Shown one piece after another: positions 425 through 42,655 of a stretch of 48,290 bases of DNA. The DNA comes from Vicinamibacterales bacterium (GTDB lineage: Bacteria; Acidobacteriota; Vicinamibacteria; Vicinamibacterales; Fen-181): positions 1 to 48,290 of the forward strand of contig DASXVO010000027.1 of NCBI GenBank assembly GCA_036504215.1, given 5' to 3'. A program made the position numbers and the translations under genes. The notes under the pieces are model-generated. The model made no database searches, was not told where the DNA came from, and worked only from the letters and a program-made list of their open reading frames with translations. How positions within the stretch are numbered: the stretch's first letter is position 1; the number at the start of each line of letters is the position of its first letter.

Positions 425-1444
425 CTATCCGCCTCGGGTGTGCATCTCGAGATGGGGATTGTGCTTGAGGGTCACGGTCGGGATGAACACTCCGCGTTCC
501 CGTTCGGCGAGCCGAACCTCGGCGCCGCGATCGACGCGTCCCTGCCAGGCTCCCCGGATCGTCTGGGCGACGGCCGAACTTCCAGCACCGGTCCGCAGAG
601 GACGCCGCAAGTCGAGTCCTTCGGCCGCGTACAGACACATGAACCAGACGCCGTCGGCCGTCAACCGTGAGCGGTCGCACGTGCCGCAGAACGGTGTCGT
701 GGTCGATGCGATGACGCCGATGACCGTCCCATCGGGCAGGCGGAACCGATCCGCCGGCGCCCAGACCGTCTCCTCGATTGGCTCGGCGCTGCCGTAGTGC
801 GCAGCCAGACGCCTGAGCATCTCCTCGCGCGGCACCACCTTGTCGGTGGACCAGCGCGTCGCCCCGCCCACATCCATGTACTCGATGAAGCGCACCTCGG
901 CGCGGTGGGTCTTCGCGTACTCAATCAGCGGGACCATCTCGTCATCGTTCACGCCGCGCATGACCACGGTATCGATCTTCAGGCCGTCGAACAGCGGGGC
1001 AGCGGCCTCGATGCCGGCGAGCACGCGATCGTGCGTGGTCAGGCGGGTGAGGGCGGTGAACCTGTCGGGGCTGAGCGTGTCGAGGCTGACGGTCAGCCGC
1101 ATCAGGCCCGCGTCCTTCAGGGGCGCCGCCTGGCGGGCGAGCAGGACGCCGTTGGTCGTGAGCGCGAGATCGGTCAGCCTCGCGCTCGAGGCGAGCAGGC
1201 GCACGAGGTCCGGCAGGTCGCGCCGAAGCAGCGGTTCACCGCCGGTGAGGCGCACCTTGTCCACACCGAGGTCGGCGAACAGCGCGACCAGCGTCGCGAT
1301 CTCCTCGAACGTGAGGAGGTCCTCCTTGGGCAGCCACGCGTACTCCTCCTCCGGCATGCAGTACTGGCAGCGGAGGTTGCAGCGGTCCGTGACCGAGACA
1401 CGCAGGCTGCGAAGGGGTCGGCCGAGCCGATCGACGAGTGACAT
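425..1444 (-). CDS. moaA: GTP 3',8-cyclase MoaA
   Basis: MoaA is a radical SAM enzyme that, with MoaC, converts GTP to cyclic pyranopterin phosphate, the first step of molybdenum cofactor synthesis in the cytoplasm. The 339-residue protein has the usual family length. The N-terminal SAM cluster motif CNLRCQYC (Cys22, 26, 29) is followed by LTGGEPLLR (about 66-74). The second iron-sulfur site that holds GTP is Cys253, Cys256 and Cys270 (FCGTCDRSRL and FMCL). The protein ends in Gly-Gly, the conserved catalytic tail of this family. It starts 10 bp after the stop of the upstream radical SAM gene, so the two are probably co-transcribed. No other moa gene is in the window. Confidence 0.97.
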   Translation of the reverse strand: MSLVDRLGRPLRSLRVSVTDRCNLRCQYCMPEEEYAWLPKEDLLTFEEIATLVALFADLGVDKVRLTGGEPLLRRDLPDLVRLLASSARLTDLALTTNGVLLARQAAPLKDAGLMRLTVSLDTLSPDRFTALTRLTTHDRVLAGIEAAAPLFDGLKIDTVVMRGVNDDEMVPLIEYAKTHRAEVRFIEYMDVGGATRWSTDKVVPREEMLRRLAAHYGSAEPIEETVWAPADRFRLPDGTVIGVIASTTTPFCGTCDRSRLTADGVWFMCLYAAEGLDLRRPLRTGAGSSAVAQTIRGAWQGRVDRGAEVRLAERERGVFIPTVTLKHNPHLEMHTRGG

Positions 1445-1454
1445 CCCCTCGATC

Positions 1455-2570
1455 TTAACTCAGAGAGACCGTTCCGAGGCGACGGCCGAGTGGCCGAGCT
1501 ACGGTCTGGCCCTCGAACTTCGGGTCCCATCGGCCGGGGATTCGGGTGCCGCAGGCGGGGCACGCGCCGTCTGGCGTCAGGCGGTAGCGGCGAATCAGGT
1601 AGGCGAAGCGTTCGATGAGAATCTCATGGCACGACGGGCAGGTCGTGTCCTCGCACCCGCCGACCGAGCCGGGCATGTTGCCGGCGTAGACGTAGGTGAG
1701 TCCGGCAGCCCGACCAATGTCCACGGCCCTGAGCAGCATGTCGACCGTCGTGTCCCCCGTGCCGCTCATCCGGTAATCCTCGTGGTAGGCCGAGACGTGC
1801 CACGGAATGTTGGGGGAGACGCCGGCCAGAAACGCCGCCAGGCGCGTCAACTCGGCATCCGAATTGTTGAAGCCCGGTACGAGCAGCGTCACGACCTCCA
1901 GCCACAGCCCCATGGCGTGGGCCCGCCGGATCGTGTCAAGGATCGGCTCGAGACGTCCGCCGAGACTCCGGTAGTGCTTGTCGTCGAAACCCTTCAGATC
2001 GATCTTGAAGAGATCGATCCAGGGCCGGAGGTACTCGAGCACCTCGGGCGTCCCGTTGCCATTGGAGACGAAGCCGGTGACCAGGCCGGCCTGCCTGGCG
2101 TGCTTGAAGATCTCCACCGCCCACTCGGTCGTGATCAGCGGTTCGTTGTAGGTGCTGACGATGGCCTTGGCGCCGGAGCGGACGGCGTCTTGGACCAGCG
2201 CCTCGGGCGAGGCGGTCTGCGCGTGGAGCGAGGCGTTGGGGTCGCGGAGCGCCTGCGAGGTGACCCAGTTCTGGCAGTACCCGCAGTGGAGATCGCACCC
2301 GAGCATGCCGAAGCTGTAGGCGAGCGCGCCGGGATAGGCATGGAAGAAGGGCTTCTTCTCGATGGGGTCGCACTGGGCGCTGCTCACGTAGCCCCAGGGC
2401 ACCATCAAGCGACCGTTCCGGTTGAACCGGACCTTGCACACGCCCTGCGCGCCGTTGGGGATTGGACACCGATGTCCACACGCGAAGCATCGCGTCCAGT
2501 CTCCGTTGTACGTCTCGTACAACTCGCCTTCCCTCGTGCGCCGCGCCAGTTCGTCGGCCAACGATCTCAT
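1455..2570 (-). CDS. amrS: AmrS-like radical SAM enzyme (AmmeMemoRadiSam family)
   Basis: This 371-residue protein resembles the pyruvate formate-lyase activase-like enzymes of the AmmeMemoRadiSam group. The SAM cluster motif is CDLHCGYC (Cys92, 96, 99), inside the typical context LGCDLHCGYCQNW. A cysteine-rich N-terminus (Cys28, 31, 35, 45) and C-terminal pairs (CEDTTCPSC, CPACG) suggest extra metal sites. A longer frame begins at 2621, but that would overlap the preceding gene, which ends at 2596. I chose ATG 2570, which has AGAAGG four bases upstream. The partners AMMECR1 and Memo are absent from the window, so the substrate is unknown. It sits between the VanX-like gene and moaA in a minus-strand run. 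Confidence 0.9.
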   Translation of the reverse strand: MRSLADELARRTREGELYETYNGDWTRCFACGHRCPIPNGAQGVCKVRFNRNGRLMVPWGYVSSAQCDPIEKKPFFHAYPGALAYSFGMLGCDLHCGYCQNWVTSQALRDPNASLHAQTASPEALVQDAVRSGAKAIVSTYNEPLITTEWAVEIFKHARQAGLVTGFVSNGNGTPEVLEYLRPWIDLFKIDLKGFDDKHYRSLGGRLEPILDTIRRAHAMGLWLEVVTLLVPGFNNSDAELTRLAAFLAGVSPNIPWHVSAYHEDYRMSGTGDTTVDMLLRAVDIGRAAGLTYVYAGNMPGSVGGCEDTTCPSCHEILIERFAYLIRRYRLTPDGACPACGTRIPGRWDPKFEGQTVARPLGRRLGTVSLS

Positions 2571-2595
2571 GCTGCCTTCTGACTCCTGCCCAAGT

Positions 2596-3285
2596 TCACC
2601 TCGGTGCCGCCCGCGGAACAATCTCCGAGAACTGAATGTTGAGGATCGGATAGCGTGCCCACTCGCGGTAGTTGAAGTGCCACCACTCGTTCGGCTCGAC
2701 CGTGAACCCCTCGGTTTCCATCGCGGCCTTCAGCCGATCTCGCGCGATGCGCTGCTGGTCAGTGCCGCCGGTGTACGTCGGGTAGGCCCGCGGCGACATC
2801 TCGTCGTAGACGCTCGGCATCTCGGCCTCGCGACCGGTCGCAAGGTCGTACAGGGACAGGTCCACGGCGCAGCCGCGGTTGTGCTTGGAGCCCTTCGTCG
2901 GATCGGCGACGAACTCCCGCTTGTCGGGCGGCGTCACGTCCCAGAAGATCTTCGTCACCGACCAGGGCCTGTAGCCGTCGTAGACCAGCAACCCGAATCC
3001 CTGCTTCCTGAGCGCGGCATTGACGCGGACGAGCGCCTCGGCGGCCGGGCGCTGGAGCAGCGCCCGCGCCTCGGGGTAGACCGGGCGGCCGGCGAGGTTG
3101 TTCGGCGTGGCGTAACGGATGTCGAGATGGATGGTCGGGTCGAGTGCGACCAACTCGACCAGGTCCGAGTCCAGGATCTCTGCTGCGTCGCGACGCGGAA
3201 ACTCGGCCGGAACGGCCACCTGGGCGCTGGCCACCGCGGCCAGCAGGAGGCCGGCCGCGACGAGGACGAGCAGGACTTTGCGCAT
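2596..3285 (-). CDS. Secreted VanX-type D-Ala-D-Ala dipeptidase (peptidase M15D)
   Basis: The 229-residue protein starts with a clear Sec signal peptide (MRKVLLVLVAAGLLLAAVASA, about 1-21), so it should act in the periplasm. The zinc-peptidase motifs of the VanX/DdpX family are present: SKHNRGCAVD (His135, Asp142) and EWWHFNY (catalytic Glu200, zinc His203), with YDGYRPW around 102-108. Enzymes of this family hydrolyse D-Ala-D-Ala. There is no vanH, vanA or vanRS nearby, so cell-wall turnover or D-Ala recycling is more likely than glycopeptide resistance (inference). It is transcribed divergently from a NagX-like gene across only 30 bp, and is followed by amrS after 25 bp. Confidence 0.93.
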   Translation of the reverse strand: MRKVLLVLVAAGLLLAAVASAQVAVPAEFPRRDAAEILDSDLVELVALDPTIHLDIRYATPNNLAGRPVYPEARALLQRPAAEALVRVNAALRKQGFGLLVYDGYRPWSVTKIFWDVTPPDKREFVADPTKGSKHNRGCAVDLSLYDLATGREAEMPSVYDEMSPRAYPTYTGGTDQQRIARDRLKAAMETEGFTVEPNEWWHFNYREWARYPILNIQFSEIVPRAAPR

Positions 3286-3315
3286 GCGCCTAGGATACTG
3301 CTAATCTCTCACGCC
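3286..3315. promoter_or_regulatory. 30-bp divergent promoter region, VanX-like / NagX-like genes
   Basis: Thirty bases separate the two opposite start codons. On the minus strand TATCCT (complement of 3292-3297) lies 6 nt before the dipeptidase ATG. On the plus strand TAATCT (3302-3307) lies 8 nt before the acetyltransferase ATG. Neither start has a Shine-Dalgarno sequence. If these are the -10 boxes, both transcripts would be essentially leaderless. The boxes are imperfect and I see no convincing -35 elements. Confidence 0.4.
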
Positions 3316-4461
3316 ATGACACGGACCACCACGCCGGTTCCGGCTCTGGCTCAGCGTCTGGTCTCGCTCGACGTCTTTCGGGGCATCACGATGGCGTCGA
3401 TGGTCATCGTCAACAACCCGGGCGACTGGGGCAATGCCTACTGGCCGTTGCTCCATGCCGAGTGGAACGGCTGGACGCCGACGGATCTCATCTTTCCATT
3501 CTTCCTGTTCATGGTCGGCGTCTCCATGACGCTGTCCAAGGCCACCACGGGACCGGGATGGCGCATCGTCCGGCGCGGCGTGATGATCATGGCGCTTGGA
3601 TGGTTCCTCGGTGGGTTCCCCTACTTCGACCTGACGAAACTCAGACTGCCGGGAGTGCTCGTGCGGATCGGACTCTGCTACCTGGCGGCGGCGGGGATCT
3701 TCCGCCTCACGTTGCCTCGTGGCGATCGCGACGACCGGCGTCACGCGCGCAGGCTTGGAGCCTGGGTCGCGGGCCTGACGCTCGGATACTGGGCGCTCAT
3801 GGTGCTGATGCCCTATCCGGGGCACGCGCCTGGTGACCTTACGCCGGCTGGCAATCTGGGTGCGTTCATCGACCGCGCGCTGCTCGGCCGGGCGCACATG
3901 TGGGGACGGCGTCCTTGGGACCCCGAAGGACTGTTGAGCACGCTGCCGGCGATCGCAACGACGTTGATGGGGCTCATGACCGGGTTCTGGCTCCGAGCCC
4001 CGGCGGAGGGACGAACGAAGGCGCTGCTGATGGCCGCGGCTGGAATTGCGGCGATGGCCATCGGGGCCCTGTGGGATCTGGCGTTTCCGATCAACAAGAA
4101 CCTCTGGACCAGTTCCTACGTGTTCTTCACCGGTGGCGCCGGGATGGCAGGCCTGGCCGCCTGCTACTGGGTCATCGACGTCGAGGGCTGGCGTTGGTGG
4201 ACCAAGCCGTTCGTCATCCTCGGCGTCAACGCGATCGCCCTGTTCATGCTCGCCGGCCTCAGCGCAAAGCTGCTGATCCTGATCAAGATGACCGACGCGG
4301 CGGGGAAACGGATCTCGCTTCAGAGCCTGATGTACGCACGGGGGTACGAGCCGTTCCTCGAGCCGAAGAACGCCTCACTGCTGTTCGCGCTGACCTACGT
4401 GGTGGCGCTGTATCTGGTTCTGTGGTTGATGTATCGACGGAGGATCTTCCTGAAGGTATAG
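3316..4461 (+). CDS. NagX/HGSNAT-like membrane acyltransferase (DUF5009 family)
   Basis: This is a 381-residue, roughly ten-helix membrane protein. The N-terminus (RLVSLDVFRGITMASM, then HAEWNGWTPTDLIFPFFLF) is the signature of the heparan-alpha-glucosaminide N-acetyltransferase family. His47 in HAEWNGWT aligns, from memory, with the human active-site histidine in HASWNGLT. Bacterial relatives (NagX) occur with amino-sugar uptake genes and are thought to acetylate or transfer amino sugars at the inner membrane. The ATG at 3316 begins just before the conserved domain; a much longer upstream frame runs over the divergent VanX-like gene and is rejected. Pairing with a secreted D-Ala-D-Ala dipeptidase supports a role in peptidoglycan breakdown-product recovery (inference). 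Confidence 0.88.
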   Translation: MTRTTTPVPALAQRLVSLDVFRGITMASMVIVNNPGDWGNAYWPLLHAEWNGWTPTDLIFPFFLFMVGVSMTLSKATTGPGWRIVRRGVMIMALGWFLGGFPYFDLTKLRLPGVLVRIGLCYLAAAGIFRLTLPRGDRDDRRHARRLGAWVAGLTLGYWALMVLMPYPGHAPGDLTPAGNLGAFIDRALLGRAHMWGRRPWDPEGLLSTLPAIATTLMGLMTGFWLRAPAEGRTKALLMAAAGIAAMAIGALWDLAFPINKNLWTSSYVFFTGGAGMAGLAACYWVIDVEGWRWWTKPFVILGVNAIALFMLAGLSAKLLILIKMTDAAGKRISLQSLMYARGYEPFLEPKNASLLFALTYVVALYLVLWLMYRRRIFLKV

Positions 4462-15300: not shown

Positions 15301-15488
15301 CGGCGCTGCTCGGCGTGGTGGAGAGCGCGGATGGCCGTCCGACCGAGCAGAGCTACGCGGCGTTCAAGGACCTCACCGTGAGGCTCGATGCGGAGGTTGT
15401 GAAGCTGGAGACCATCGAGAAGAGGGACATCCCGGCCTTCAACGCCCTGGTGGCGCGAGCGAAGCTCCCGCCGATCACGGTGCAATGA
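12348..15488 (+). CDS. Large exported BNR/Asp-box (VPS10/sortilin-like) repeat protein
   Basis: This 1046-residue protein has a signal peptide (about 1-30, ending VVHAQA) and about ten Asp-box repeats of the form S/T-x-D-x-G-x-T-W, for example WKTTDGGTTWK, YKSVDAGKTWK, FRSTDGGATWK, FKSTDGGDSWT, RSDDGGATWT and RTTNEGQSWE. These build a beta-propeller like that of sortilin and glycosyl hydrolase family 74. The C-terminal 330 residues have a beta-sandwich-like region, a charged insert (KKEKKDEAGDEEE) and a helical end around SIKEQVHDRSGKAKNSK. Proteins of this type are abundant in Acidobacteriota and are usually labelled glycosyl hydrolase, but catalytic activity is not established. ATG 12348 follows AAGGAG. 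The preceding 169 bases show nothing more than this ribosome site. Confidence 0.9.
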   Translation: MRAILSAILAGCVLALAALSATRGVAVVVHAQASASATGYDAAFFGDLKWRNIGPNRGGRAIGVAGSTARPLEYYFGATGGGLWKTTDGGTTWKPVTDEHLRTSSVGAVAVAESSPDTVFIGMGETELRGDVIQGDGIYKSVDAGKTWKSSGLADSQNIARIRVHPTDANRVYAAALGHTYGPNAERGVFRSTDGGATWKKILFRDERTGAVDLCLDPSNPQVVYAALWEVFRTPHSLSSGGPGSGLFKSTDGGDSWTEISRNSGLPKGTLGKIGVAVAPGGSNRVYAIVEAEEGGIFRSDDGGATWTKANDARRFRQRAFYYSRIYADPKERDRLYVLNTGLYRSADAGKTWKSIRVPHGDNHDLWVAANDPQRMINGNDGGGNVSVNGGETWTGQRYPTAQMYHVTTTAHVPYHVCGAQQDNSTACVPSTGNGDEFYEVGGGESGYIAADPRNPGVFYAGSYGGLLTRLDRRTGQMRQINVWPENPMGHSSNAMKERFQWTFPIVFSATDPRVLYAGSQHLWRTTNEGQSWEQISPDLTRADPATMGPSGGPITLDQTGVETYATIFTIAPSRKDGDTIWTGSDDGVVQVTRDAGRTWNNVTPPDLPPFARISLIEASPHKPGTAYVAANRYQRDDRAPYFYRTDDFGRSWTTIVTGIADGDFARAIREDIVRPGLLYAGTEQGIYASFDDGAHWQSLRLNLPVTPVHDIAVTENDIVLATHGRSFYLLERIGVLRQLTPAVAQASGHLFTPQDAVRSVNRGVAVDYYLKQAAEKVTIDILDGDGRLVRSFTGTPDVEKKEKKDEAGDEEEYFRTPEPKVPVKAGMNRFVWDMRYPGPVPIPKMILWAAGPRGPTALPGRYQVRLTVAQAGASNGAGPMVASFAIRRHPLLTSVADVDLQQQFALAMQVRDAVTRADETVLRIRSIKEQVHDRSGKAKNSKLTAAAAALTSRLTEIEGEIYQYRNQSSQDPLNFPIKLNNKLAALLGVVESADGRPTEQSYAAFKDLTVRLDAEVVKLETIEKRDIPAFNALVARAKLPPITVQ

Positions 15489-24346: not shown

Positions 24347-25084
24347 ATGAAGAGAACAGAACGTCATCGTTTGAAGGAAAATGAGCTTGCATCGACCGTG
24401 ACGCGTCTCCGCGAAACGTTCGAGATCTACCGCAAGCCGATCATTGCCGGCGTCGTGGCGGTTGTCGTCGTCGTCGCCGCGGTGATAGGTGTCCTCGCGT
24501 GGCGATCAGAGGCCGACAGCCAGGCGCGTGTGGGCCTCGCAGATGCCATGGCCGTCGAGCGAGCCCAGGTAGCGCCGGCACTGGCGCCGGGTGCCACGAC
24601 ACCGCCTCCGCCCGCACCGGCCGGAAGCTTCCCGAACGAGAAGGCCCGGAACGAGGCGGCCCTGGCCAAGTTCATGGCGGTCGCGACTCAGTATCCCTCG
24701 GCCGACGCCGGCATCACGGCACGCTATCACGCGGCAGCACTGCTGACCCTGCTCGGCCGTCAGAGCGATGCGCTGCAGCGTTACCAGGAAGTGATCGACC
24801 GCGCCGGATCGTCGCTCTACGGTGAGATGGCGAGGCTGGGCATCGCGGACGTCCAGGTGGCGGCGGGTCAGTGGGACAAGGCCATCGCCACTTACAAGGA
24901 GATGTCCGCGCGCAAGGACGGCAAGCTGCCGGTTGACGGCATCCTGATGCAGTTGGGCCGGGCGTACGGGGCCGCCGGGAAGCCCGTCGACGCGAAGCAG
25001 ACGTTCAAGCGAATCGCGGACGAGTTCCCGCAATCGCCCTATGCGGCCGACGCGAAGCGGGAGATGGACGCGATCAAGGGATAG
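24347..25084 (+). CDS. Membrane-anchored TPR protein (YfgM/TPR_21-like)
   Basis: The 245-residue protein has a basic N-terminus, one transmembrane helix (about 34-53: PIIAGVVAVVVVVAAVIGVLA), a Pro/Ala linker and about three TPR-like helical repeats (about 105-240, e.g. YPSADAGITARYHAAALLTL and RYQEVIDRAGSSLYGEMARL). This matches the YfgM-type ancillary subunit associated with the Sec translocon, which has a short cytoplasmic end and a periplasmic TPR domain. The usual neighbour BamB is not next to it, although a PQQ-propeller gene lies 16 kb away. It converges with the ureohydrolase gene, overlapping it by 11 bp. Confidence 0.82.
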   Translation: MKRTERHRLKENELASTVTRLRETFEIYRKPIIAGVVAVVVVVAAVIGVLAWRSEADSQARVGLADAMAVERAQVAPALAPGATTPPPPAPAGSFPNEKARNEAALAKFMAVATQYPSADAGITARYHAAALLTLLGRQSDALQRYQEVIDRAGSSLYGEMARLGIADVQVAAGQWDKAIATYKEMSARKDGKLPVDGILMQLGRAYGAAGKPVDAKQTFKRIADEFPQSPYAADAKREMDAIKG

Positions 25085-25961
25085 CGAAGCGATAGCTCAG
25101 CATCTTGTAGATGAGTTTCGCGCACAGGAAGTTCGGCGCCACCATCCCCGGCAGGGGGCACAGTTCCACGACGTCGCATCCCACGACGAGGCGTTTGCTC
25201 ATGACCGCCTTCAGCAGCGCCGTCGTCTCGTGCCACGACAGGCCGCCAGGTTCTGGCGTTCCGACGGCAGGCATGATCGCCGGGTCGAGGCCGTCGCAGT
25301 CTATCGTCACGTAGACCTGGTCGGTCAGAGTGGATACGACCCGCTCAATCCAGTCCGGGTCCCGCCGCATGTCGTGGTCCCAGAACACGTGGGTCCGCAG
25401 GCCGGGAATCGCCTGGGATTCCTCCCGGCACAGGCTTCGAATGGCGACCTGCGTGCAGGGCACGTGCTCGACGATGCGTCGCATGGCGCAGGCGTGGCTG
25501 AAGCGGCTGCCCTGGTAGGACTCGCGCATGTCGGCGTGCGCGTCGATCTGCAGCACGGAGAGGCCCGGTGTGCGGGCTGCAATCGCCTCCACGACAGGCA
25601 CGCTGAGGGAATGCTCGCCGCCCAGGATGACCAGGAACTTCCCGTGCGCCATCACCGAGGCGACGACGCGTTTGATCTCGTCGAGCGCGCCGCCCATGTC
25701 GTGGTGCGAGAGGTCCATCTCGGGCAGCGTGTAGATTCCGCGGCTGTAGGCCTCACTGGCCGTCTCCTGATCCCACAATTCGACCTGGCCGGATGCCAGC
25801 AGAATCTCGCGAGGTGCGTTGCGCGTGCCGGTGACGTAGCTCGTGGTGCGTTCGAACGGGATGGGCAGTACGACCGAGGCGCAGTCCTCGAAGCTCTGTG
25901 AGTGCTCGAAACCGCCGAAGGTCAGGGGGGCAGGGTGGTCGTAGTCAACAAGGTAGTCCAT
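25074..25961 (-). CDS. speB: Agmatinase-type ureohydrolase
   Basis: The 295-residue protein carries the binuclear-manganese motifs of arginase/agmatinase enzymes: GGEHS (114-118), DAHAD (140-144) and DCDGLDP (221-227). The end of the substrate site is GTPEPGGLSWHE. Agmatinase converts agmatine to putrescine and urea, so it would supply polyamines; guanidinobutyrase or another ureohydrolase is possible. In the third motif Cys replaces the more usual Ile (DxDxxDP is intact). The ATG at 25961 has GAGGG a few bases upstream; the longer frame to 26297 runs into the neighbouring gene and is rejected. Confidence 0.9.
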   Translation of the reverse strand: MDYLVDYDHPAPLTFGGFEHSQSFEDCASVVLPIPFERTTSYVTGTRNAPREILLASGQVELWDQETASEAYSRGIYTLPEMDLSHHDMGGALDEIKRVVASVMAHGKFLVILGGEHSLSVPVVEAIAARTPGLSVLQIDAHADMRESYQGSRFSHACAMRRIVEHVPCTQVAIRSLCREESQAIPGLRTHVFWDHDMRRDPDWIERVVSTLTDQVYVTIDCDGLDPAIMPAVGTPEPGGLSWHETTALLKAVMSKRLVVGCDVVELCPLPGMVAPNFLCAKLIYKMLSYRFAIP

Positions 25962-26010: not shown

Positions 26011-28950
26011 TCAGAACGAGCGTCCGAGGCGGAAGTACGCCGAACTGCCACGCCGACCGGTCGTGCCATCGCGCGTCCACGCGACGCCGCCGGCCAGCGT
26101 GAGCGGAACGCTGAAGCCAGCCACGACGTCGCACGCGAACTCCGCACCGACTGCGACCTTGGCGTCATCGAGCGAGAACCGGTCGTCCCATGCGTGGCCG
26201 ACATCGGCAAAGGCCGCGCCGTGAACGGACCGCAGGAGGAGTGGAAACGTCCCCCACCCGCGGTCGACGCGCCACAGTGGTTGGCGCCACTCGACATTGC
26301 CGACGGCGATTCGCGACCCGCTGAACACCTTGTCGTCGAACCCGCGAAGCATGCTCAGTGCGCCGGAACCGAAATTGACGAGCGGGCCCGCGGGTGAGGC
26401 GCCGCCAAGATAGAACAGCCTCCGCACCGCGACGTCTCCGGAGGACCCGCCGATCCCCGCACGCGCGGCGAGCACCGAATGGCCCCGTCCCAGACGCGCG
26501 TAGCCGCGGAACTCGGCGGTGAAGGCATCGGCATTGCCATCCGCGCCGAATGCGCCGCGAACCTGCTCGCTCGTCGCCGATAGCGCCACTCCGTCTTCGA
26601 GGCTGACCGCCCGCCCGTAGGCCTTGGCGCTGCTGAAGGTCCAGGCCGACTGCATCGCGTGCCGATGATAGCTCCGCGGCTGGCCCGTGATGTTGAGCGT
26701 GTCACGTTCGACGTTGAGTGCGCTCTGCCAAATCTGGGTATGGCGCATGCGGGCGATCGGCCAGGCGACGCCCGCTTTCACATTCAGTTCTCGCAGTTCG
26801 GCGTCGGGCAACCGTATCCCGTCCTTTGCGACGTGGGCCAGGTAGGACGTCTGGTCGGACGCGGCGACGAACATCGACGGCTGCCAGCGGCCGTAGACGT
26901 ACGAGGCGTTCCAGTCTGGTCGCGCGGTATGCGGACCGGTGATCGCATCACCGCCGCCGCTGAGACGCCACAGGACGCTGGCGGTAATGAGATGACGGCC
27001 AAGAACGTCAACCCCATCCGTCCGCACGCCAAGACGGAACAAGCCGTTCGCGGCGTCGGCTCCTGGAAGCCAGGCACGTGGCAACAGCGTGGGAACCGGG
27101 GAGTAGGGCCGTTCTGTCGTCGGCTCCTCACGGAGCGTGGCCGTCGTCGTGGGACCGACCGGCCAGCCGCGACCTCCGGACGATGTCGTCCACGTGCTGG
27201 GATCCAGGGGCATCTCGAAGGCGTCGTAGCCCTCGCCGAGCGCCGAGACGAACACCAGGTGGCGGCCATCGGGCGATACGTCCGGGTACGTCGCGCCGCC
27301 CGGCACCGAGGTGACCTGGCGCACCGATGGGTGCCCGGCGGTGGCCACGGCGAAGATCTGGAACGCGCGGTCGATGTCGTCGGCTGCGAACAACACCGCC
27401 TGGCCGTCCGGGAGCCACGTGGGCGTCATGCTGCGGCCCGAGCGGGTCGAGGCCAGCACCGCCATCGCTCCGTCGTCGGGCCGGATGACAACGATCTCGG
27501 AGGGACCGCCGTCCACTCGACGTTCCGCCGCAATCCATTCGCCGTCTGGCGACCAACGCGGAGAGCCGAAGTTGGCGACGTCGGACATCGCGATCGACCA
27601 GCCGGGAGGCGTTGCGGCCGTCTGGTCGAGCGATACGCGGCCGTCGGTTGCCCGGACCACCCTGAAGAGCGCGAGGTGGCGTCGGCCTCCCGCCATCCGC
27701 ACGCATGCCAGCGCTCGGCCATCCGGGGAGACGTCGGGTTCCACGAGACGCGCGCCGTGCGTCAGGCGTCGCGTGCCGCCCGTACGAAGAGACGTCACAT
27801 AGAGGTCGCTTCGGAGCGCGACGCCATCCTCGAGCTCGAATTGATCGAAGAAGACGAGATCCCCGCTCACGCCGATGTGTGTCCCGCCCGCGCGGGTCGC
27901 GATGCGACGCGGCGTGCCTGGGCGATCCATTGCGAGAGTCATGATCGCCGGGAAGCGATCGGCATCCCGCGTGGAGTAGAGCAGTGCGCGTCCACCGGCC
28001 GCGAAGCGAGGCGCGGTGACGAAGTACCCGTGCGAGGTCAGTCGGCGGGGGATCGCTGACGGCGGCGTGGATGGTGGTGTCGAGACGGGCGTCCCGGCGT
28101 GCTGCCCGGTTCCGAAGTCGCGCCACAGCGCACCAAGGCTCTCCCCGAACGTCTGACGGAACGCCCGGCTCGCGAGGTAGGGCAGCCGCCCGGCGGTGCG
28201 CCGGCTCAGCTCACCGAGCTTGGCTTCACCGAATCGGTCGGCGAGGTACTGATAGAAGTACGCGCCAACCAGGTAGGGGCCGAGGCCGCCGGGCCACTCC
28301 ACCGCGCCGCCACTCACGCGGTCGATCGGCTCGGGACCGGTGTCGCGCATTCGGCTCCGGACTACGGCCGCCACATCACCTGAATACAGGCGTCCCTGTC
28401 CGGTCGTTCGGCTCTCCTCGAAGGTTGCGAGGCCCTCGAACTGCCACTGCGGCAGGAACAGGTTTGGAAAGACGATTGGCGCCCGGCCGACGATGCGACG
28501 GAGGACCGACGCCCAGCCGACCGATTGGTCGAACTGCAGGATGTGCATGTACTCGTGAGTGAACACGAGACGCAGCCAGTCGCTCGTGTTGCCCAGCAGG
28601 TCGGAGGAGCCAGGCCACGCGGCGTCCAGCGTAATCGTGTTGTAGGGCACCGGCGTCGCCGAGCCGCTGCTCTCGTCGTCCTGGTCGGAGAGCACGACGT
28701 GGGTGACGCGGGGCGCCTGCAATCGCACGCGAGCGGGAAGCGTCGCGTGCACCGACTCGGCGATCGCGGCCACCTGGCGGGCCAGGGCCTGCCCGCCCTG
28801 GTGATAGTAGATGCAAAAGTGAGGGGTCACGATCGTGCGGAACCGGAGCCCTGGCTGGTAGCGGGAAGCCCCCTCGGTTCTGGTGCCGCCACACGCCAGC
28901 AGTGCGAACACGACGGCGAGCAGAACCGAATGCGTCCGCCGCGCGGTCAT
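26011..28950 (-). CDS. Metallopeptidase-like domain / TolB-like propeller / beta-barrel fusion protein
   Basis: The 979-residue exported protein has three parts. Residues about 35-290 are a gluzincin-type peptidase region with HEYMH (zinc ligands His132, His136; catalytic Glu133) and the third-ligand segment EGLATFEES (Glu172). Residues about 310-620 contain WD40/PD40-like TolB propeller repeats such as VEPDVSPDGRALACVR, GSPRWSPDGEWIAAER and TYPDVSPDGRHLVFVS. Residues about 650-979 form an outer-membrane beta-barrel of the surface-antigen/BamA type (YLGGASPAGPLVNFGSGALS, MLRGFDDKVFSG) and end in Phe. The signal region MTARRTHSVLLAVVFALLAC ends in a possible lipobox (Cys20). ATG 28950 follows GAGGG; the frame is open to 29343 but overlaps mutS. 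The domain assignments are by motif. Confidence 0.85.
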   Translation of the reverse strand: MTARRTHSVLLAVVFALLACGGTRTEGASRYQPGLRFRTIVTPHFCIYYHQGGQALARQVAAIAESVHATLPARVRLQAPRVTHVVLSDQDDESSGSATPVPYNTITLDAAWPGSSDLLGNTSDWLRLVFTHEYMHILQFDQSVGWASVLRRIVGRAPIVFPNLFLPQWQFEGLATFEESRTTGQGRLYSGDVAAVVRSRMRDTGPEPIDRVSGGAVEWPGGLGPYLVGAYFYQYLADRFGEAKLGELSRRTAGRLPYLASRAFRQTFGESLGALWRDFGTGQHAGTPVSTPPSTPPSAIPRRLTSHGYFVTAPRFAAGGRALLYSTRDADRFPAIMTLAMDRPGTPRRIATRAGGTHIGVSGDLVFFDQFELEDGVALRSDLYVTSLRTGGTRRLTHGARLVEPDVSPDGRALACVRMAGGRRHLALFRVVRATDGRVSLDQTAATPPGWSIAMSDVANFGSPRWSPDGEWIAAERRVDGGPSEIVVIRPDDGAMAVLASTRSGRSMTPTWLPDGQAVLFAADDIDRAFQIFAVATAGHPSVRQVTSVPGGATYPDVSPDGRHLVFVSALGEGYDAFEMPLDPSTWTTSSGGRGWPVGPTTTATLREEPTTERPYSPVPTLLPRAWLPGADAANGLFRLGVRTDGVDVLGRHLITASVLWRLSGGGDAITGPHTARPDWNASYVYGRWQPSMFVAASDQTSYLAHVAKDGIRLPDAELRELNVKAGVAWPIARMRHTQIWQSALNVERDTLNITGQPRSYHRHAMQSAWTFSSAKAYGRAVSLEDGVALSATSEQVRGAFGADGNADAFTAEFRGYARLGRGHSVLAARAGIGGSSGDVAVRRLFYLGGASPAGPLVNFGSGALSMLRGFDDKVFSGSRIAVGNVEWRQPLWRVDRGWGTFPLLLRSVHGAAFADVGHAWDDRFSLDDAKVAVGAEFACDVVAGFSVPLTLAGGVAWTRDGTTGRRGSSAYFRLGRSF

Positions 28951-29000: not shown

Positions 29001-31703
29001 TCATGGTTCCTGGGCGTCCTTCTTGAGCTCGGCCAGAAAGCCCAGAGCCTCGATCGGCGTCATTCGATCGGGGTCGATTCCCTGCAGGCGCTCGAGGAGG
29101 CGTTCTCCATTGGACGGCATCGACTGGAACAGGCCGAGTTGCTGCTGAGGCTCGGTCGGTGTCCGGCTCACCGATGGCCGGCCGCCGCGCGTCAACTCGT
29201 CGTGTTCGAGCGCGCCGAGGATCTCCCGCGCCCGCTCCACGACGGTCTGAGGGAGCCCGGCCAGCCGAGCGACCTGGATGCCGTAGCTTCGGTCCGACCG
29301 GCCCGGAACGACCTTTCGCAAGAAGATGATGTCGTCGCGCCACTCGCGTGCGTCCACGTGGTAGTTGACGACGCCGGCGATGCCGTCGGCCAGATCCGTC
29401 AGTTCATGGTAGTGCGTCGCGAAGATTGTCTTCGGCCGGGCCTTCGGGTTCGTCGCCAGGTGCTCGGCCACCGCCCAGGCAAGGCTGAGGCCGTCGAAGG
29501 TGGCCGTGCCGCGGCCGATCTCGTCGAGGATGACCAGACTGCGCGAGGTCGCCGAGTGCAGGATGTTTGCCGTTTCCTGCATCTCGACCATGAAGGTCGA
29601 CTGACCGCGCGCGATGTTGTCGGAGGCGCCGACCCGGGCGAAGATGCGGTCCACCATCGCGAGCTTCGCCTGCCGTGCGGGAACGAACGAGCCGGCTTGC
29701 GCGAGCAGGCAGATGATGGCCGTCTGCCGCAGGTAGGTGGACTTGCCACCCATGTTCGGGCCGGTCAGGATCACCAACTGGTTCGACGTGGTGTTGAGCA
29801 GCGTGTCATTGGGCACGAACTGGTCCGACGACCGCCGCTCGACGATGGGGTGCCTGCCGTCCACGATCTGGAGCTCGTCGCCGTCGTGCACGTGCGGCTT
29901 GATGTAGTTGTTGAACGTGGCGGTCTCAGCGAGCGCCGACAGGGCGTCGAGCGCGGCCATGGCGCGCGCCGAGTCCTGGATGCGGGGCGCGAGCATCGCG
30001 ACCTCACCGCGCAACCGGTCGAAGATCTCGACCTCGCGGACCAGGATCCGTTCGTCCGCGCCGACTACCTTTTCTTCGTATTCCTTCAGCGCGGGCGTGA
30101 CAAAACGTTCGCCGCCGGCAATCGTCTGCTTGCGGTGGTAGTCGTTCGGCACCGCGTGCAGGTTTGATTTCGAGACCTCGATGTAGTAGCCGAACACCCG
30201 GTTGTAGCGGATCTTGAGCGACGGAATGCCGGTTCGCTGCCGCTCCTGCTCCTCCATCTGCGCAATCACCTGCTTGCCCGACCGGCTGATGGTGCGGAGT
30301 TCGTCCAGTGCCGGATCGAAGCCGTCGTGCACGAACCCGCCGTCACGGGCCAGCGCCGGCGGATCGTCGGCGATCGCCGACTCGATCGCCGACCGAACTT
30401 CGGGCACGTCATCGAGTTCGGCGGCCAGGCTTCGTGCGAGCGGTGCCTGAAGGTCCTCGAGGATCAACCGAAGCCTGGGGACGGCGCCAAGCGACTGTTT
30501 CAGCGCGACGAGGTCGCGTGGACCCGCCGAGCCGAGCGCCGTGCGGGCGACCAGGCGCTCGAGATCCTGCACCGCCTTGAGAGTGTCGCGGAACCGGCCC
30601 CGTTCCGTGGTCTTGAAGGCGAAGTCCTCAACCGCGTCCAGGCGGTCGCGCACCCGTTCCAGGGAGAGCAGCGGCCTGAGCAGCCACTGGCGGAGCAGGC
30701 GTCCGCCCATCGGGGTGATCGTCCGATCGATCTCGTCCAGCAGGGAACCGGCGCGGACGCCGCTCGACGACTCCACCACTTCCAGATGGCGGAGCGTGAT
30801 GGGGTCCACCACCAGCGTCTCGGCGGTCTGCCTGAAGGTGACGGCACGCACGTGCGCCAGATCTGCCTTCTGCGTCTCGCGGAGATACCGAACCAGGGCG
30901 CCGCCCGCGCGGATGGCGGGCACGCGCCCCTCGAGGCCGAAGCCCTCCAGACTCTGCGTCCGCAGTTGTTCCACCAGGCTGGCGCGGGCGGATTCGGCCT
31001 CGAAAGTCCAGGCTTCGACGGCCGTCGTCGGGATCTTCAGCGCGGCGACGTGGGGAAGGAAGTCGGCCACGGTGAAATCGTCCGGCACCACCAGTTCACG
31101 CGGCCGCAGCACACCCATCTCGTCGGCCAGCGCCTGGCGTCCCACGTCGCCGAGATACTCGGCCGTCGTGAACTCTCCGGTCGAGAGGTCGATGAGGGCA
31201 ATGCCTATCGCCTCGAGCCCGGCCGCAGCCCCGGTGGCCTGCGCTTTGCGCGGCGCCGCGAAGGACGGTGCAAGAGCCATCAGAAACGCTGGTTCCTTGG
31301 CATCGAGGTAGGCGGCGTCGGTCAACGTTCCCGGCGAGACCACCCTGACCACCTCACGCCGGACCAGCCCTTTCGCCTTGCGCGGATCCTCGACCTGATC
31401 GCAAATCGCGACGCGAAATCCCTTCTTCACCAGACGGGCCAGGTAGCCGTCGACGGCATGGTAGGGCACGCCGCACATGGGAATCGTGCCGCCGCTCGAG
31501 TCCTTGCTGCGAGAGGTCAGGGTCAACTCGAGGGCCCGGGACGCCACCAGCGCGTCCTCGTAGAACATCTCGTAGAAGTCGCCCATCCGGAAAAAGACGA
31601 TGGCGTCACGGTATTGCCGCTTCGCCTCGAGATACTGGCGCATCGCCGGGGTAGCCTGTCCGAGCGTGCCGGCCGACGAGGAGTGTTCTGCGGGAGGTAC
31701 CAT
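29001..31703 (-). CDS. mutS: DNA mismatch repair protein MutS
   Basis: MutS recognises base mismatches and, with MutL, starts strand-directed repair. The 900-residue protein has the mismatch-wedge motif GDFYEMF (Phe43, Glu45) in domain I, the connector, lever and clamp regions, and an ABC-type ATPase: Walker A GPNMGGKSTYLRQ (about residue 647 on), the signature region ARGQSTFMVEM, and Walker B LVILDEIGRGTATFDG. The C-terminal tail is shorter than a full tetramerisation domain. The longest open frame starts at 31853, but ATG 31703 begins at the normal N-terminus and leaves a divergent promoter region with tsaB. No mutL is in the window. The surface-protein gene follows 50 bp downstream. Confidence 0.97.
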   Translation of the reverse strand: MVPPAEHSSSAGTLGQATPAMRQYLEAKRQYRDAIVFFRMGDFYEMFYEDALVASRALELTLTSRSKDSSGGTIPMCGVPYHAVDGYLARLVKKGFRVAICDQVEDPRKAKGLVRREVVRVVSPGTLTDAAYLDAKEPAFLMALAPSFAAPRKAQATGAAAGLEAIGIALIDLSTGEFTTAEYLGDVGRQALADEMGVLRPRELVVPDDFTVADFLPHVAALKIPTTAVEAWTFEAESARASLVEQLRTQSLEGFGLEGRVPAIRAGGALVRYLRETQKADLAHVRAVTFRQTAETLVVDPITLRHLEVVESSSGVRAGSLLDEIDRTITPMGGRLLRQWLLRPLLSLERVRDRLDAVEDFAFKTTERGRFRDTLKAVQDLERLVARTALGSAGPRDLVALKQSLGAVPRLRLILEDLQAPLARSLAAELDDVPEVRSAIESAIADDPPALARDGGFVHDGFDPALDELRTISRSGKQVIAQMEEQERQRTGIPSLKIRYNRVFGYYIEVSKSNLHAVPNDYHRKQTIAGGERFVTPALKEYEEKVVGADERILVREVEIFDRLRGEVAMLAPRIQDSARAMAALDALSALAETATFNNYIKPHVHDGDELQIVDGRHPIVERRSSDQFVPNDTLLNTTSNQLVILTGPNMGGKSTYLRQTAIICLLAQAGSFVPARQAKLAMVDRIFARVGASDNIARGQSTFMVEMQETANILHSATSRSLVILDEIGRGTATFDGLSLAWAVAEHLATNPKARPKTIFATHYHELTDLADGIAGVVNYHVDAREWRDDIIFLRKVVPGRSDRSYGIQVARLAGLPQTVVERAREILGALEHDELTRGGRPSVSRTPTEPQQQLGLFQSMPSNGERLLERLQGIDPDRMTPIEALGFLAELKKDAQEP

Positions 31704-35053: not shown

Positions 35054-38000
35054 CTAGGCCGCGGCGGCCGGCAGGATCACGGTCACGATGGTGCCGCGGC
35101 CGCGTTCGCTCGTGACCGAGATCGTGCCGTGGTTCAGCTCGATGTTCCGCCGGGCGATGGCCAGGCCCAGCCCGGTGCCCACCGCCTTGGTCGAGAAGTA
35201 GGGCTCGAACAGCCGCTTCATCGCTTCTTGGTCCATTCCGACGCCACTGTCCTCCACCGTCAAGCGGACGACGCCTTCTGGCTGGGGCCGCGCGATGATC
35301 GTCAGCGATCCACCGCCGGGCATGGCGTGCAGGGCGTTGTCGATGACGTTGGTCAGGGCGCGCCCGACGAGCGTGCGATCGATCATCGTGGGCGGAAGGG
35401 AGGAGGGGACGTCGATGCGGAAGGCCACGCGCTCGCCCGCGCCAGCGATGTAGGGTCTCACCACCTCGTCGACGAGTTCCTGCAGCCCCGCTGGCGCCAG
35501 ACGCGCGGTGGGCGACGAGGCGAAGCTCGAGAACTCGGACGCGATCTGGCGCAGCAGGCGGACCTGGGAGAGGATCGAATCGACGCAGTTCTCGAGCACC
35601 GGCTCGAGCGGCTTCCCGCGGTCGGCATGCACCCGGCGCAGGTGTTCGGCCGACAATTGGATGGGCGTCAGCGGATTCTTGATCTCGTGGGCGACCTGCC
35701 GGGCCATCTCTGCCCAGGCCTCGAGCCGGTGGGTCCGCTCCAATTCGCCCCGTTGCTGCTGGAGTTCGGCCGACATCCGGTTGAAGGCCTCGACGAGCCG
35801 CCTCAGCTCGTCGGACGAGGTCGCCGCAATCCTGGCGTCGAAGTCGCCACGCGCGATACGCCGGGTCGCGCGGGTCAGGCGATTCACCGGATCGGCGATC
35901 CGCTCGGCCATCGGGTAGCCGATTGCGGCGCCGATCAGGATGAACAGCAGCGCGGCGAGGATGATCCGGCGGTTCAAATCGTCGATCTCGCGCTCGATTT
36001 CCTGTTGGCGCAGTGTCAGCGGCACGGTGAGGATCGCCTCCCGGCCGGCCGCACGAACGGGCGCCGCCGCGACCATGTAGCGAACGGTGGCCGCCTGTTC
36101 CTCGGTGATCATGGTCGGCATCCGGTCGAGGACGATCGCACGATAGATGTCGGCAGGCGTGCGGGTGGGCAGCAGCCCTGACGCGAACAGATCGCGCTCG
36201 CTCGTCGCGTCGAGTTGCGGGCCGATGAAGATATTCACCGCCTGACCGATCACCCGGCTCAATCCCACCATCGCATCGTCGCTCAGCGTCAGGACGGCGT
36301 CCGGGCCGCCCGGTTGCTGAATGCTGTACTCCTCGATCATCTGCCGGGCGATGGCCGTGGTCTTGTGGGCCGCCGACTCCACGTCATGCCGCAGGCGGTC
36401 CGCGATGTAGGCCCGCGTCACGAGAGCGAGCGTCACGACCGGGACGACCGACGCCGCCACGAACGCGAGGAACAACTTGCGATAGAAGCTCTCGCGAATC
36501 TCTCGGAGCAGTGCCCGGCCGCTCCGCACGCGGCGCGCGCCGAGCGCGCGGAACAGCGCGCCGCCGCTGAGTATGCCGATGTAGGCCAGCGCGACGAGCA
36601 CGGTCATCTCCGCCAGGTTGATGAGGTGTTCGATTGGCTGGATCACCGGGTAGCCGAGCGCGTAGATTCCGGGCCGGTCGTTCTCGATGTAGACCTCGTA
36701 CACGACACCGGCGGCCGCGAGTCGGGTCCAGAACGGACGCCGAGAGGCACAGATCTGAGAGAAGAGATGGTCGTCGATTGGCCAGGCGCTGTTGCCCGAC
36801 ACGTAGAGCGGGGTGCGGCTCCAGCCGTAGACGGCGAACAAGATCTCGCGACTGGGGTTCTCGTCGGGCGGATGCGTCAGCTGGCCCCGGAGCAACTCGA
36901 AGTACGGGTTCTGCGACGAGATGAAGGAAATCGTACTGTCGTCCAAAATGACGTGGATGACGATCGTGCCGAAGATCGCTCCCTGCGGCCCGCAGATGTT
37001 CCGACCGGCATGGAGCAACTGGCGTTCGTGGGCGCCGAACCGACTCATCTCGCCGAACGTCTGCCAGTTGCAGCTCTCCTCGTGCCACAGCTGGCGGGAG
37101 GCGTCCTCGGGCAGGTTGAGCGCAAACCGGCTGACGAGCGCCCCTCCGGCGTTGTACAGCTCGATGGCCGAGGAGACGCGATACCGCTCGAGAGCCGTGC
37201 CGCTCCAGACCAGGAACGCGCTCTGGGTCGGAATCGCCTCCCCGAACGTCGGCGCCAACACCGAGACGTACGCATCCAACGCGGCCCCGCGGCTGTCGAT
37301 TTCCCCTTGCGCCGCCTGGAGGCGCTCCTGCAAGTTCTCCCGGCGGCCGAGGACCTCTGGCGCATAGCTCAACTCGACCACCCGGCGTCGGGCGCCCTCC
37401 TCGAAGTAGACGAGCGATGGGTACGTGATGACCGCCGGAGCGAGCAGCACCAGGAACATGGCGATCAGCCGGTACCCCTGGGAGGCGTGGCGCACGCGGA
37501 TCAGGCTGCGCGGCGCGAGGAAGGCCGTCAGCAGGAGCGTCCCGCAGACGAGCAGCGCCTCCGGATTCGGCAGGTCGGTGCCGGCGACGGTCCGGAACCA
37601 CGTCCAGACCACGGCAACTGGCAGGGCCCAGGTGACGAGGAGCAGCGCGTCGGTACGGACGTCTCGGCGGCGGAAACGCCAGGGAGCCAGCCCTGTCCGA
37701 AGCAGGAGAACCGCGATCCAGGCAAAGGCGGCGTGAAAGAAGACCAGGCCCCACGCCATCGCCATGCGGGCGGTGTTCCACGGATGTGGGGAGAAATAGA
37801 GGATGTCGACCGACGTGCGCTTGAAGGTCTCGGACAGGAACCACTCGTAGCCGATCACGCCGAGCGCAAGGCCCGCCCCCGCGACAGCCTGCGTCACGAG
37901 AAACCCGACGGCGGGCCGGCCAGCGTCGATTACCGGGCGCCGCCTGCCACCGTAGAGCTGGCGCCGGCGTTCGAGTGGAGCGGCCAGCAGGCCGACGAGC

Positions 38001-39064
38001 CCAAGCACCATCAGCGCGGTCAGCAGGAAATCGGCGGGATGGCGCGAGAACAGTCCGAGCCGTGACCAGTGATACGCCTCGAGCGAGAACACACGGGTCG
38101 CGCTCGCTGGCGTCGCGAGACCGAGGAGAAGCCGTGCGCCGATTGCGAGGGCGATGGACGCGACGGTCGCGAGGATATACGGCCCACGAGATCGAGCCAG
38201 CACCCGGCGGTCGAGCAGCGGTCCGATCATCAAGAGCAGCGCCAGTGCGAGGACGGCAACGGCCACGCATTGGACCGTGTGGCGATGTTCCTGCCGAGCC
38301 CGCTGCAGCGCGGCTGGATCGACCGTCGCTTCGAGCAGGGGCTCGCCGGTCGGTGAGCGCACAAGGAAGCTGAAGGGGTGAACCCGCTCGCCGGCGCCCT
38401 CGTAGCGGGTGCGCACGTTGACGGGCGCCACCCGGGTCGAGATGGTGAACCGCTCGCCGGCCGCGTCCCCAACGGCTGCGTGCTCGGAGAACAGGCGCTC
38501 GACTGCCACTATTCCGGGGCGCCCGCCGGGCCGTGGTGCGAGACGGGTCGCATTCCCGTCTCGTTCAGCGCGCGCGCGCAGCTCGCCATCGGGGCGCTGG
38601 GACACGGGCTCGATCTGAACCAGCCGGAAGCCCAGAGGGCCCGGGGCGACAAACAGGGCCGCCGGCCCGGTAATGCGCTCGAGCGGGAGTTCCGAGGAGC
38701 GTCCGGCCCATGCGACAGGCGCTCCCGACGGGCCGTACACCGTCAGGGCCAACCGGCCGTCCGGGTCCTGATGCACGAGCGCATCGGCGTGGGTGAACAG
38801 CGGGCGCAAGTCGGCTACCTCGCTCGACCCGCGAAGAACGGCCGTCGCCGCCGCCGCTTCGTCTCTGGCGATCGACGCGAGCGCCGCCGCCATCTGGCCG
38901 AACTCCGACCGGACCTGCTCCTCGACGCGCGCGTACGCCGCCCGGTCGTCGGGGCCAAGGCGCACGCGTTCGGCCACCCAGCCTCCGGCCAGGACCAGGG
39001 CAGCCGCGACGAGGCCGCCGGCGGCTATGGCCGGCACGTTGTTGGGCCGAAGGTCGAGTCGCAT
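35054..39064 (-). CDS. Very large NtrY-like sensor histidine kinase (1336 aa)
   Basis: One uninterrupted frame encodes, in order: a transmembrane helix (about 12-32), an extracytoplasmic domain (about 35-260), a block of about seven helices (about 262-530), a second sensor region (about 540-780) and another helix near 790-810. A further helix-flanked sensor and HAMP-type segment (RIADPVNRLTRATRRIARGD) comes next. The kinase core has the H-box RQVAHEIKNPLTP with phospho-acceptor His at about 1126, the N-box NVIDNALHAMPGG, and G boxes DSGVGMDQ and GTGLGLAIARRN. The C-terminus TVILPAAAA closes the ATPase domain without a receiver. No response regulator is adjacent. The input signal is unknown. 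Confidence 0.9.
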   Translation of the reverse strand: MRLDLRPNNVPAIAAGGLVAAALVLAGGWVAERVRLGPDDRAAYARVEEQVRSEFGQMAAALASIARDEAAAATAVLRGSSEVADLRPLFTHADALVHQDPDGRLALTVYGPSGAPVAWAGRSSELPLERITGPAALFVAPGPLGFRLVQIEPVSQRPDGELRARAERDGNATRLAPRPGGRPGIVAVERLFSEHAAVGDAAGERFTISTRVAPVNVRTRYEGAGERVHPFSFLVRSPTGEPLLEATVDPAALQRARQEHRHTVQCVAVAVLALALLLMIGPLLDRRVLARSRGPYILATVASIALAIGARLLLGLATPASATRVFSLEAYHWSRLGLFSRHPADFLLTALMVLGLVGLLAAPLERRRQLYGGRRRPVIDAGRPAVGFLVTQAVAGAGLALGVIGYEWFLSETFKRTSVDILYFSPHPWNTARMAMAWGLVFFHAAFAWIAVLLLRTGLAPWRFRRRDVRTDALLLVTWALPVAVVWTWFRTVAGTDLPNPEALLVCGTLLLTAFLAPRSLIRVRHASQGYRLIAMFLVLLAPAVITYPSLVYFEEGARRRVVELSYAPEVLGRRENLQERLQAAQGEIDSRGAALDAYVSVLAPTFGEAIPTQSAFLVWSGTALERYRVSSAIELYNAGGALVSRFALNLPEDASRQLWHEESCNWQTFGEMSRFGAHERQLLHAGRNICGPQGAIFGTIVIHVILDDSTISFISSQNPYFELLRGQLTHPPDENPSREILFAVYGWSRTPLYVSGNSAWPIDDHLFSQICASRRPFWTRLAAAGVVYEVYIENDRPGIYALGYPVIQPIEHLINLAEMTVLVALAYIGILSGGALFRALGARRVRSGRALLREIRESFYRKLFLAFVAASVVPVVTLALVTRAYIADRLRHDVESAAHKTTAIARQMIEEYSIQQPGGPDAVLTLSDDAMVGLSRVIGQAVNIFIGPQLDATSERDLFASGLLPTRTPADIYRAIVLDRMPTMITEEQAATVRYMVAAAPVRAAGREAILTVPLTLRQQEIEREIDDLNRRIILAALLFILIGAAIGYPMAERIADPVNRLTRATRRIARGDFDARIAATSSDELRRLVEAFNRMSAELQQQRGELERTHRLEAWAEMARQVAHEIKNPLTPIQLSAEHLRRVHADRGKPLEPVLENCVDSILSQVRLLRQIASEFSSFASSPTARLAPAGLQELVDEVVRPYIAGAGERVAFRIDVPSSLPPTMIDRTLVGRALTNVIDNALHAMPGGGSLTIIARPQPEGVVRLTVEDSGVGMDQEAMKRLFEPYFSTKAVGTGLGLAIARRNIELNHGTISVTSERGRGTIVTVILPAAAA

Positions 39065-42636: not shown

Positions 42637-42642
42637 GCCGCT

Positions 42643-42649
42643 TATAATA
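42643..42649. promoter_or_regulatory. Shared bidirectional -10 box, propeller gene / dnaE
   Basis: The 19-bp gap between the two GTG starts contains TATAATA. On the plus strand TATAAT (42643-42648) ends 7 nt before the dnaE GTG. On the minus strand TATTAT (complement of 42644-42649) also ends 7 nt before the propeller GTG. Neither gene has a Shine-Dalgarno, so both mRNAs are predicted to be leaderless. -35 elements are weak or absent on both sides. Confidence 0.6.
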
Positions 42650-42655
42650 CCGTCA

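Follow-up and report, generated by a model that had tools for sequence, protein, structure and literature searches.

A predicted zinc peptidase, a TolB-like propeller and an Omp85-type outer-membrane barrel in one protein of the Acidobacteriota

A gene of a Vicinamibacterales bacterium (assembly GCA_036504215.1, contig DASXVO010000027.1) raises the question of whether a peptidase, a beta-propeller and an outer-membrane barrel can indeed be joined in a single protein and, if so, what such a protein would do in the cell envelope. The window analyzed, 48,290 nucleotides in length, comprises positions 1-48,290 of the forward strand of this contig, and the gene starts with an ATG at position 28950 (Table 1). 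Its product, here called P0001, is encoded by one open reading frame of 979 residues. The first-pass annotation, made from the sequence alone, had proposed a single protein composed of these three parts, and this proposal is substantiated: the Pfam search that it suggested detected BSP, PD40 and Omp85 in P0001, and profile matches were obtained for each part. As judged from these matches, one chain combines a domain resembling zinc peptidases with a propeller of the TolB type and a barrel of the outer membrane.

Table 1. Positions in the window of the gene for P0001, of its predicted domains and motifs, and of the adjacent genes.
Feature	Position	Strand	Basis
Whole gene (P0001)	26011..28950	-	ORF and translation; full-length homologues across the order and phylum
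Signal peptide, residues ~1-28	28867..28950	-	Hydrophobic N-terminus
Peptidase MA-clan (gluzincin-like) domain, residues ~36-285	28096..28845	-	Pfam BSP PF04450; hhalign
HEYMH, zinc-binding/catalytic motif, residues 132-136	28543..28557	-	Conservation in 33 relatives
Glu172 of EGLATFEE, predicted as third zinc ligand	28435..28437	-	Conservation; Peptidase_MA_2 alignment
Tyr226, candidate catalytic (oxyanion) Tyr	28273..28275	-	Conservation; Peptidase_MA_2 alignment
TolB-like beta-propeller, residues ~300-598	27157..28053	-	PD40; TolB structure matches; blade motifs
Omp85-type outer-membrane barrel, residues ~614-979	26014..27111	-	PF01103; barrel profile vs PDB
Loop-6 LRG(F/Y), Arg869-Gly870	26341..26346	-	Conservation; alignment with LRGY of 9ccg
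mutS, upstream neighbor, 50-nt gap	29001..31643	-	Pfam MutS I-V
Agmatinase/arginase-family gene, downstream neighbor, 49-nt gap	25074..25961	-	Pfam Arginase

The HEYMH motif occurs only once in P0001, and the EGLATFEE segment starts at E172. In an alignment of 33 homologues from across the Acidobacteriota, with identities down to 20-25%, H132 is present in all 33 relatives and E133, H136 and E172 each in 32 of them; E179 and R187 are likewise found in 33/33. In 20,000 shuffles of the residues of P0001, an HExxH followed by WxxEG within 20-60 residues occurred 0 times. The conservation and the shuffles together reject a chance origin of the HExxH...E motif. The BSP match (PF04450, a family of clan MA; residues 53-279) scored 24.0 bits, just above the cut-off of 23.8, and is weak if considered alone. 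A profile of 31 peptidase domains from P0001 and its relatives was, however, matched by hhalign to a set of 19 separate Acidobacteriota Peptidase_MA_2 domains with 99.3% probability (E-value 4.4e-20), whereas the negative control, in which the same profile was compared with the barrel, yielded 0.05%. The HExxH, the PxWxxEG (with E172 as its Glu) and a later Tyr coincide with their counterparts in the Peptidase_MA_2 set. The complete HExxH...E zinc site recognized in the first-pass annotation is thus upheld by both conservation and alignment, and the predicted zinc site of P0001 is intact and conserved. The combination of HExxH, a downstream Glu ligand and a profile relationship to a clan MA family is that of the gluzincins. 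P0001 itself has no match to PF13485 (Peptidase_MA_2) in Pfam up to an E-value of 10 and, therefore, we file the domain in clan MA and not in this family. A profile search of solved structures returned none for the peptidase profile at a meaningful E-value. Position 226 is Tyr in 30/33 relatives and Phe in 2/33; in the Peptidase_MA_2 set the aligned position is an invariant Tyr, which suggests a possible catalytic (oxyanion) role for Tyr226.

One relative (L061:430-3219, reverse strand) carries the substitutions E133G, H136R, E172A and Y226N and has retained H132 and E179. Such a joint loss is expected if E133, H136, E172 and Y226 form one active site, and the L061 protein is probably a dead peptidase on the same scaffold. 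At the locus near its relative (G179, L108), no frame of >700 residues was found in the stretch examined.

The middle part of P0001 was matched by PD40 with 61.8 bits (Pfam) and by TolB structures with a best E-value of 7e-10, in agreement with the TolB-like propeller proposed earlier; the TIGR02800 TolB model matched at 4.2e-19, yet far below the cut-off of that family itself. Five blade motifs begin at residues 314, 405, 464, 510 and 556, and a degenerate sixth was recognized by eye near residue 357. The propeller is, therefore, probably six-bladed, like that of TolB.

For the C-terminal part, the Pfam match to Omp85 (PF01103, residues 786-927) was only just above the cut-off (25.2 vs 24.0 bits), and PF01103 was found at E <= 0.01 in 20/33 relatives. 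A profile built from the 33 barrels matched the POTRA-Omp85 structure 9ccg (E-value 1.3e-9) and the BamA structure 8xnb (3.4e-7) in the PDB. In the loop-6 motif, which aligns with the LRGY of 9ccg, R869 is conserved in 33/33 and G870 in 29/33 relatives, and the terminal Phe979 in 33/33. A C-terminal barrel profile, a loop-6 (V/I/L)RG(F/Y) and a terminal Phe are the hallmarks of the Omp85 superfamily, and the assignment of a BamA/surface-antigen-like barrel ending in Phe can, consequently, be retained. The barrel comprises ~365 residues, a length compatible with 16 strands. Structure prediction, which the first-pass annotation had named as a check, gave models of very low confidence, with a mean pLDDT of 30.5 for full-length P0001 (without alignment) and of 35.8 for the peptidase domain alone; since both values are too low for use, our statements on the fold rest on sequence profiles.

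Profile searches detected no POTRA domain in P0001 or its relatives, and the gap of only ~15-20 residues between propeller and barrel leaves no room for one. By its domain composition, P0001 is not of the canonical POTRA-bearing Omp85 type. Its domain order, in which a TolB-like propeller immediately precedes the Omp85 barrel, is that of the WD40-Omp85 proteins, a subfamily of the Omp85/TpsB superfamily named by Heinz and Lithgow in 2014 (PMC4104836).

The first-pass annotation also considered a possible lipobox at Cys20 to be a topological puzzle. Cys20 does fit a loose lipobox; a Cys at this column is, however, found in only 2/33 relatives, and a conserved lipobox Cys, as expected for a lipoprotein, is thus lacking. 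Two orthologues from the same genus have no Cys at column 20, and the orthologues show Ala-rich, signal peptidase I-like ends ahead of a conserved RYDP start. Since the close orthologues lack it, we consider Cys20 an individual trait of P0001 and not part of the design of the family. The puzzle dissolves for a second reason: Omp85 lipoproteins have been described (PMC4104836), and the topology of an outer-membrane barrel protein would be compatible with a lipid attached to its N-terminus in the periplasm.

Close relatives of P0001 occur in many Vicinamibacterales genomes, and matches at <= 1e-20 were obtained in 44 of 396 genomes drawn from the Acidobacteriota. With separate profiles for peptidase and barrel, both were found in one frame in 37 cases, distributed over 34 of 109 Acidobacteriota genomes and consisting of the P0001 family and a weaker-scoring group. 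Some acidobacterial frames match the peptidase profile only, the barrel there being absent or diverged. The weaker-scoring group includes a second peptidase-propeller-barrel protein from the genome that encodes P0001 (contig C39:44000-48400, here L087; ORF 575..3730, reverse strand). This protein of 1051 residues is distant from P0001 and contains HELTH...NEGLSDYE, PD40 repeats and, in its barrel, MRGYD. Outside the phylum, its peptidase and the first part of its propeller are matched by a 634-residue protein of a Salinibacter plasmid annotated as basic secretory protein-like. Scans of viral contigs revealed no relatives. For PF04450, no hit was among the matches listed for 60 genomes, a result that does not imply absence of the family from them. 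As judged from these homologues, P0001 represents a genuine protein, conserved and fairly common in the Acidobacteriota. The idea that its architecture might be rare finds no support in these counts, and its propeller-barrel core already belongs to a named subfamily.

In the Vicinamibacterales the genomic setting is stable. mutS adjoins the gene in all 14 loci examined and the agmatinase gene lies downstream of it in 12 of these; this neighborhood is lost in the more distant relatives examined. Its constancy within the order points to vertical inheritance of the gene. The two neighbors themselves give no clue to the function of P0001. A gene for a TPR protein (24347-25084, forward strand; TPR_21 among its matches) lies tail to tail with the agmatinase gene and is kept beside the locus in most of the Vicinamibacterales. 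Elsewhere, the window encodes a 1046-residue protein with Sortilin-Vps10/BNR repeats, another large propeller type (12348-15488, forward strand), a 414-residue BamB-like PQQ propeller protein (41431-42675, reverse strand), and a 1336-residue histidine kinase (35054-39064, reverse strand), for which no Pfam match at 1e-5 was obtained in the first ~1050 residues.

What, then, could P0001 do? The explanation that we favor, and which we consider about evenly poised between right and wrong, is that it is a metallopeptidase anchored in the outer membrane, facing the periplasm and serving quality control or processing of envelope proteins. It is preferred because the zinc ligands are conserved, the predicted active-site residues are lost jointly in L061, POTRA domains are absent, the locus is stable and the architecture occurs twice in this genome. 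The three domains, the conserved zinc site, the missing space for POTRA domains and the wide vertical conservation can all be read from the sequences themselves; the explanation further presumes a fold, a topology, a proteolytic activity and a substrate. P0001 would be exported by Sec, as its signal peptide suggests, and BAM would insert its barrel into the outer membrane, as the class of the barrel and its terminal Phe suggest. Both the zincin domain at the N-terminus and the propeller would remain on the periplasmic face, with the propeller directly beside the barrel, i.e., where other Omp85 proteins have their POTRA domains. The propeller would most likely capture protein substrates or partners and hold them at the zinc site, where the peptidase may cut or process envelope proteins at the membrane, either misassembled outer-membrane proteins or periplasmic peptides. 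The periplasmic topology, the most likely one, is based on the Omp85 class and on an experiment with the Omp85 protein PlpD, the enzyme domain of which was shown to stay periplasmic (PMC11116518). The weakest step is the role in quality control, which is suggested by analogy to BepA, an HExxH peptidase with LptD as a target, which takes part in the quality control at BAM in the periplasm (PMC8423444). A more far-reaching version would see in these proteins a widespread, undescribed Omp85 class in which the propeller, seated where the barrel faces the periplasm, bears a true zinc peptidase, one chain thereby uniting the roles that BamA, BamB and BepA have in Escherichia coli; this is conceivable but we regard it as doubtful.

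The conserved loop-6 RG motif could also indicate that barrel and propeller aid the insertion of outer-membrane proteins, much like a fusion of BamA and BamB, with the peptidase as an editing or chaperone domain. Such a function has been proposed for WD40-Omp85 proteins (PMC4104836), BepA unites assembly help with proteolysis (PMC8423444), and the dead zinc site of one relative would permit a non-proteolytic role. Against this, P0001 lacks a POTRA domain, the zinc site is kept in 32/33 relatives, and the barrel of PlpD anchors an enzyme, so that an Omp85 barrel need not imply assembly activity (PMC11116518). We therefore consider a role as assembly factor unlikely. Still less likely is that the barrel exports its own peptidase and propeller to the cell surface, where they would serve to acquire nutrients or to attack other cells. 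Protein translocation does occur in Omp85 relatives, FhaC among them, and secretion of the enzyme domain was the original proposal for PlpD (PMC4104836), but that claim has been overturned by the periplasmic location of the domain (PMC11116518). In addition, a folded propeller and zincin of ~60 kDa would have to cross a barrel of ~365 residues, and no separate translocation domain or linker was seen in P0001. A route for peptide uptake, with the propeller and peptidase capturing and trimming peptides and the barrel acting as their channel, is suggested by anatomy only, as the three parts could in principle line one path; it is very improbable, since, according to the description in PMC4104836, the barrels of BamA and TamA are completely shut towards the exterior and there is no transporter among the immediate same-strand neighbors. 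A zincin that is merely a structural or binding domain, a state which L061 shows to be tolerated, is the least probable of all, as the predicted catalytic residues are retained in 32/33 relatives, including distant ones.

The preferred reading, a periplasm-facing peptidase held by its own barrel, would have wider implications. Most of what is known about the quality control of outer-membrane proteins comes from Proteobacteria, and a membrane-anchored peptidase across much of a less-studied phylum would represent a second solution to this task. P0001 is, moreover, a clear case for asking whether an Omp85 barrel can serve to anchor an enzyme, as in PlpD, and not as an assembly or secretion machine.

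Among the known systems, P0001 is related to various Omp85 proteins that carry an N-terminal domain. PF00149 is a phosphoesterase family, named Metallophos in Pfam. Omp85 proteins with this domain form the ‘Metallo’ subfamily and are nevertheless called metalloproteases in PMC4104836; like P0001, they carry a hydrolase-like domain N-terminal to an Omp85 barrel, but this domain is not an HExxH peptidase and there is no propeller. The ‘metalloprotease’ subfamily of 2014 thus rests on PF00149, whereas an HExxH peptidase occurs on proteins of the propeller type. WD40-Omp85 proteins have an N-terminal TolB-like propeller, an Omp85 barrel and no POTRA domain in common with P0001; in the literature searched, their name is used in PMC4104836 alone. 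The word ‘peptidase’ does not appear in the main text of that paper, nor is a zinc peptidase ahead of the propeller described there. Hence, the propeller-barrel core was already known and, judged from this main text, the zinc peptidase preceding it appears to be new. PlpD, which likewise joins an enzyme to an Omp85 barrel and is our model for a periplasmic topology, differs in having a patatin lipase and a POTRA domain in place of zincin and propeller (PMC11116518). BepA, the M48 peptidase of E. coli, is a functional analogue: it is likewise a periplasmic zinc metallopeptidase, active in outer-membrane protein assembly (PMC8423444), but it possesses neither the propeller nor the barrel that P0001 carries in the same chain.
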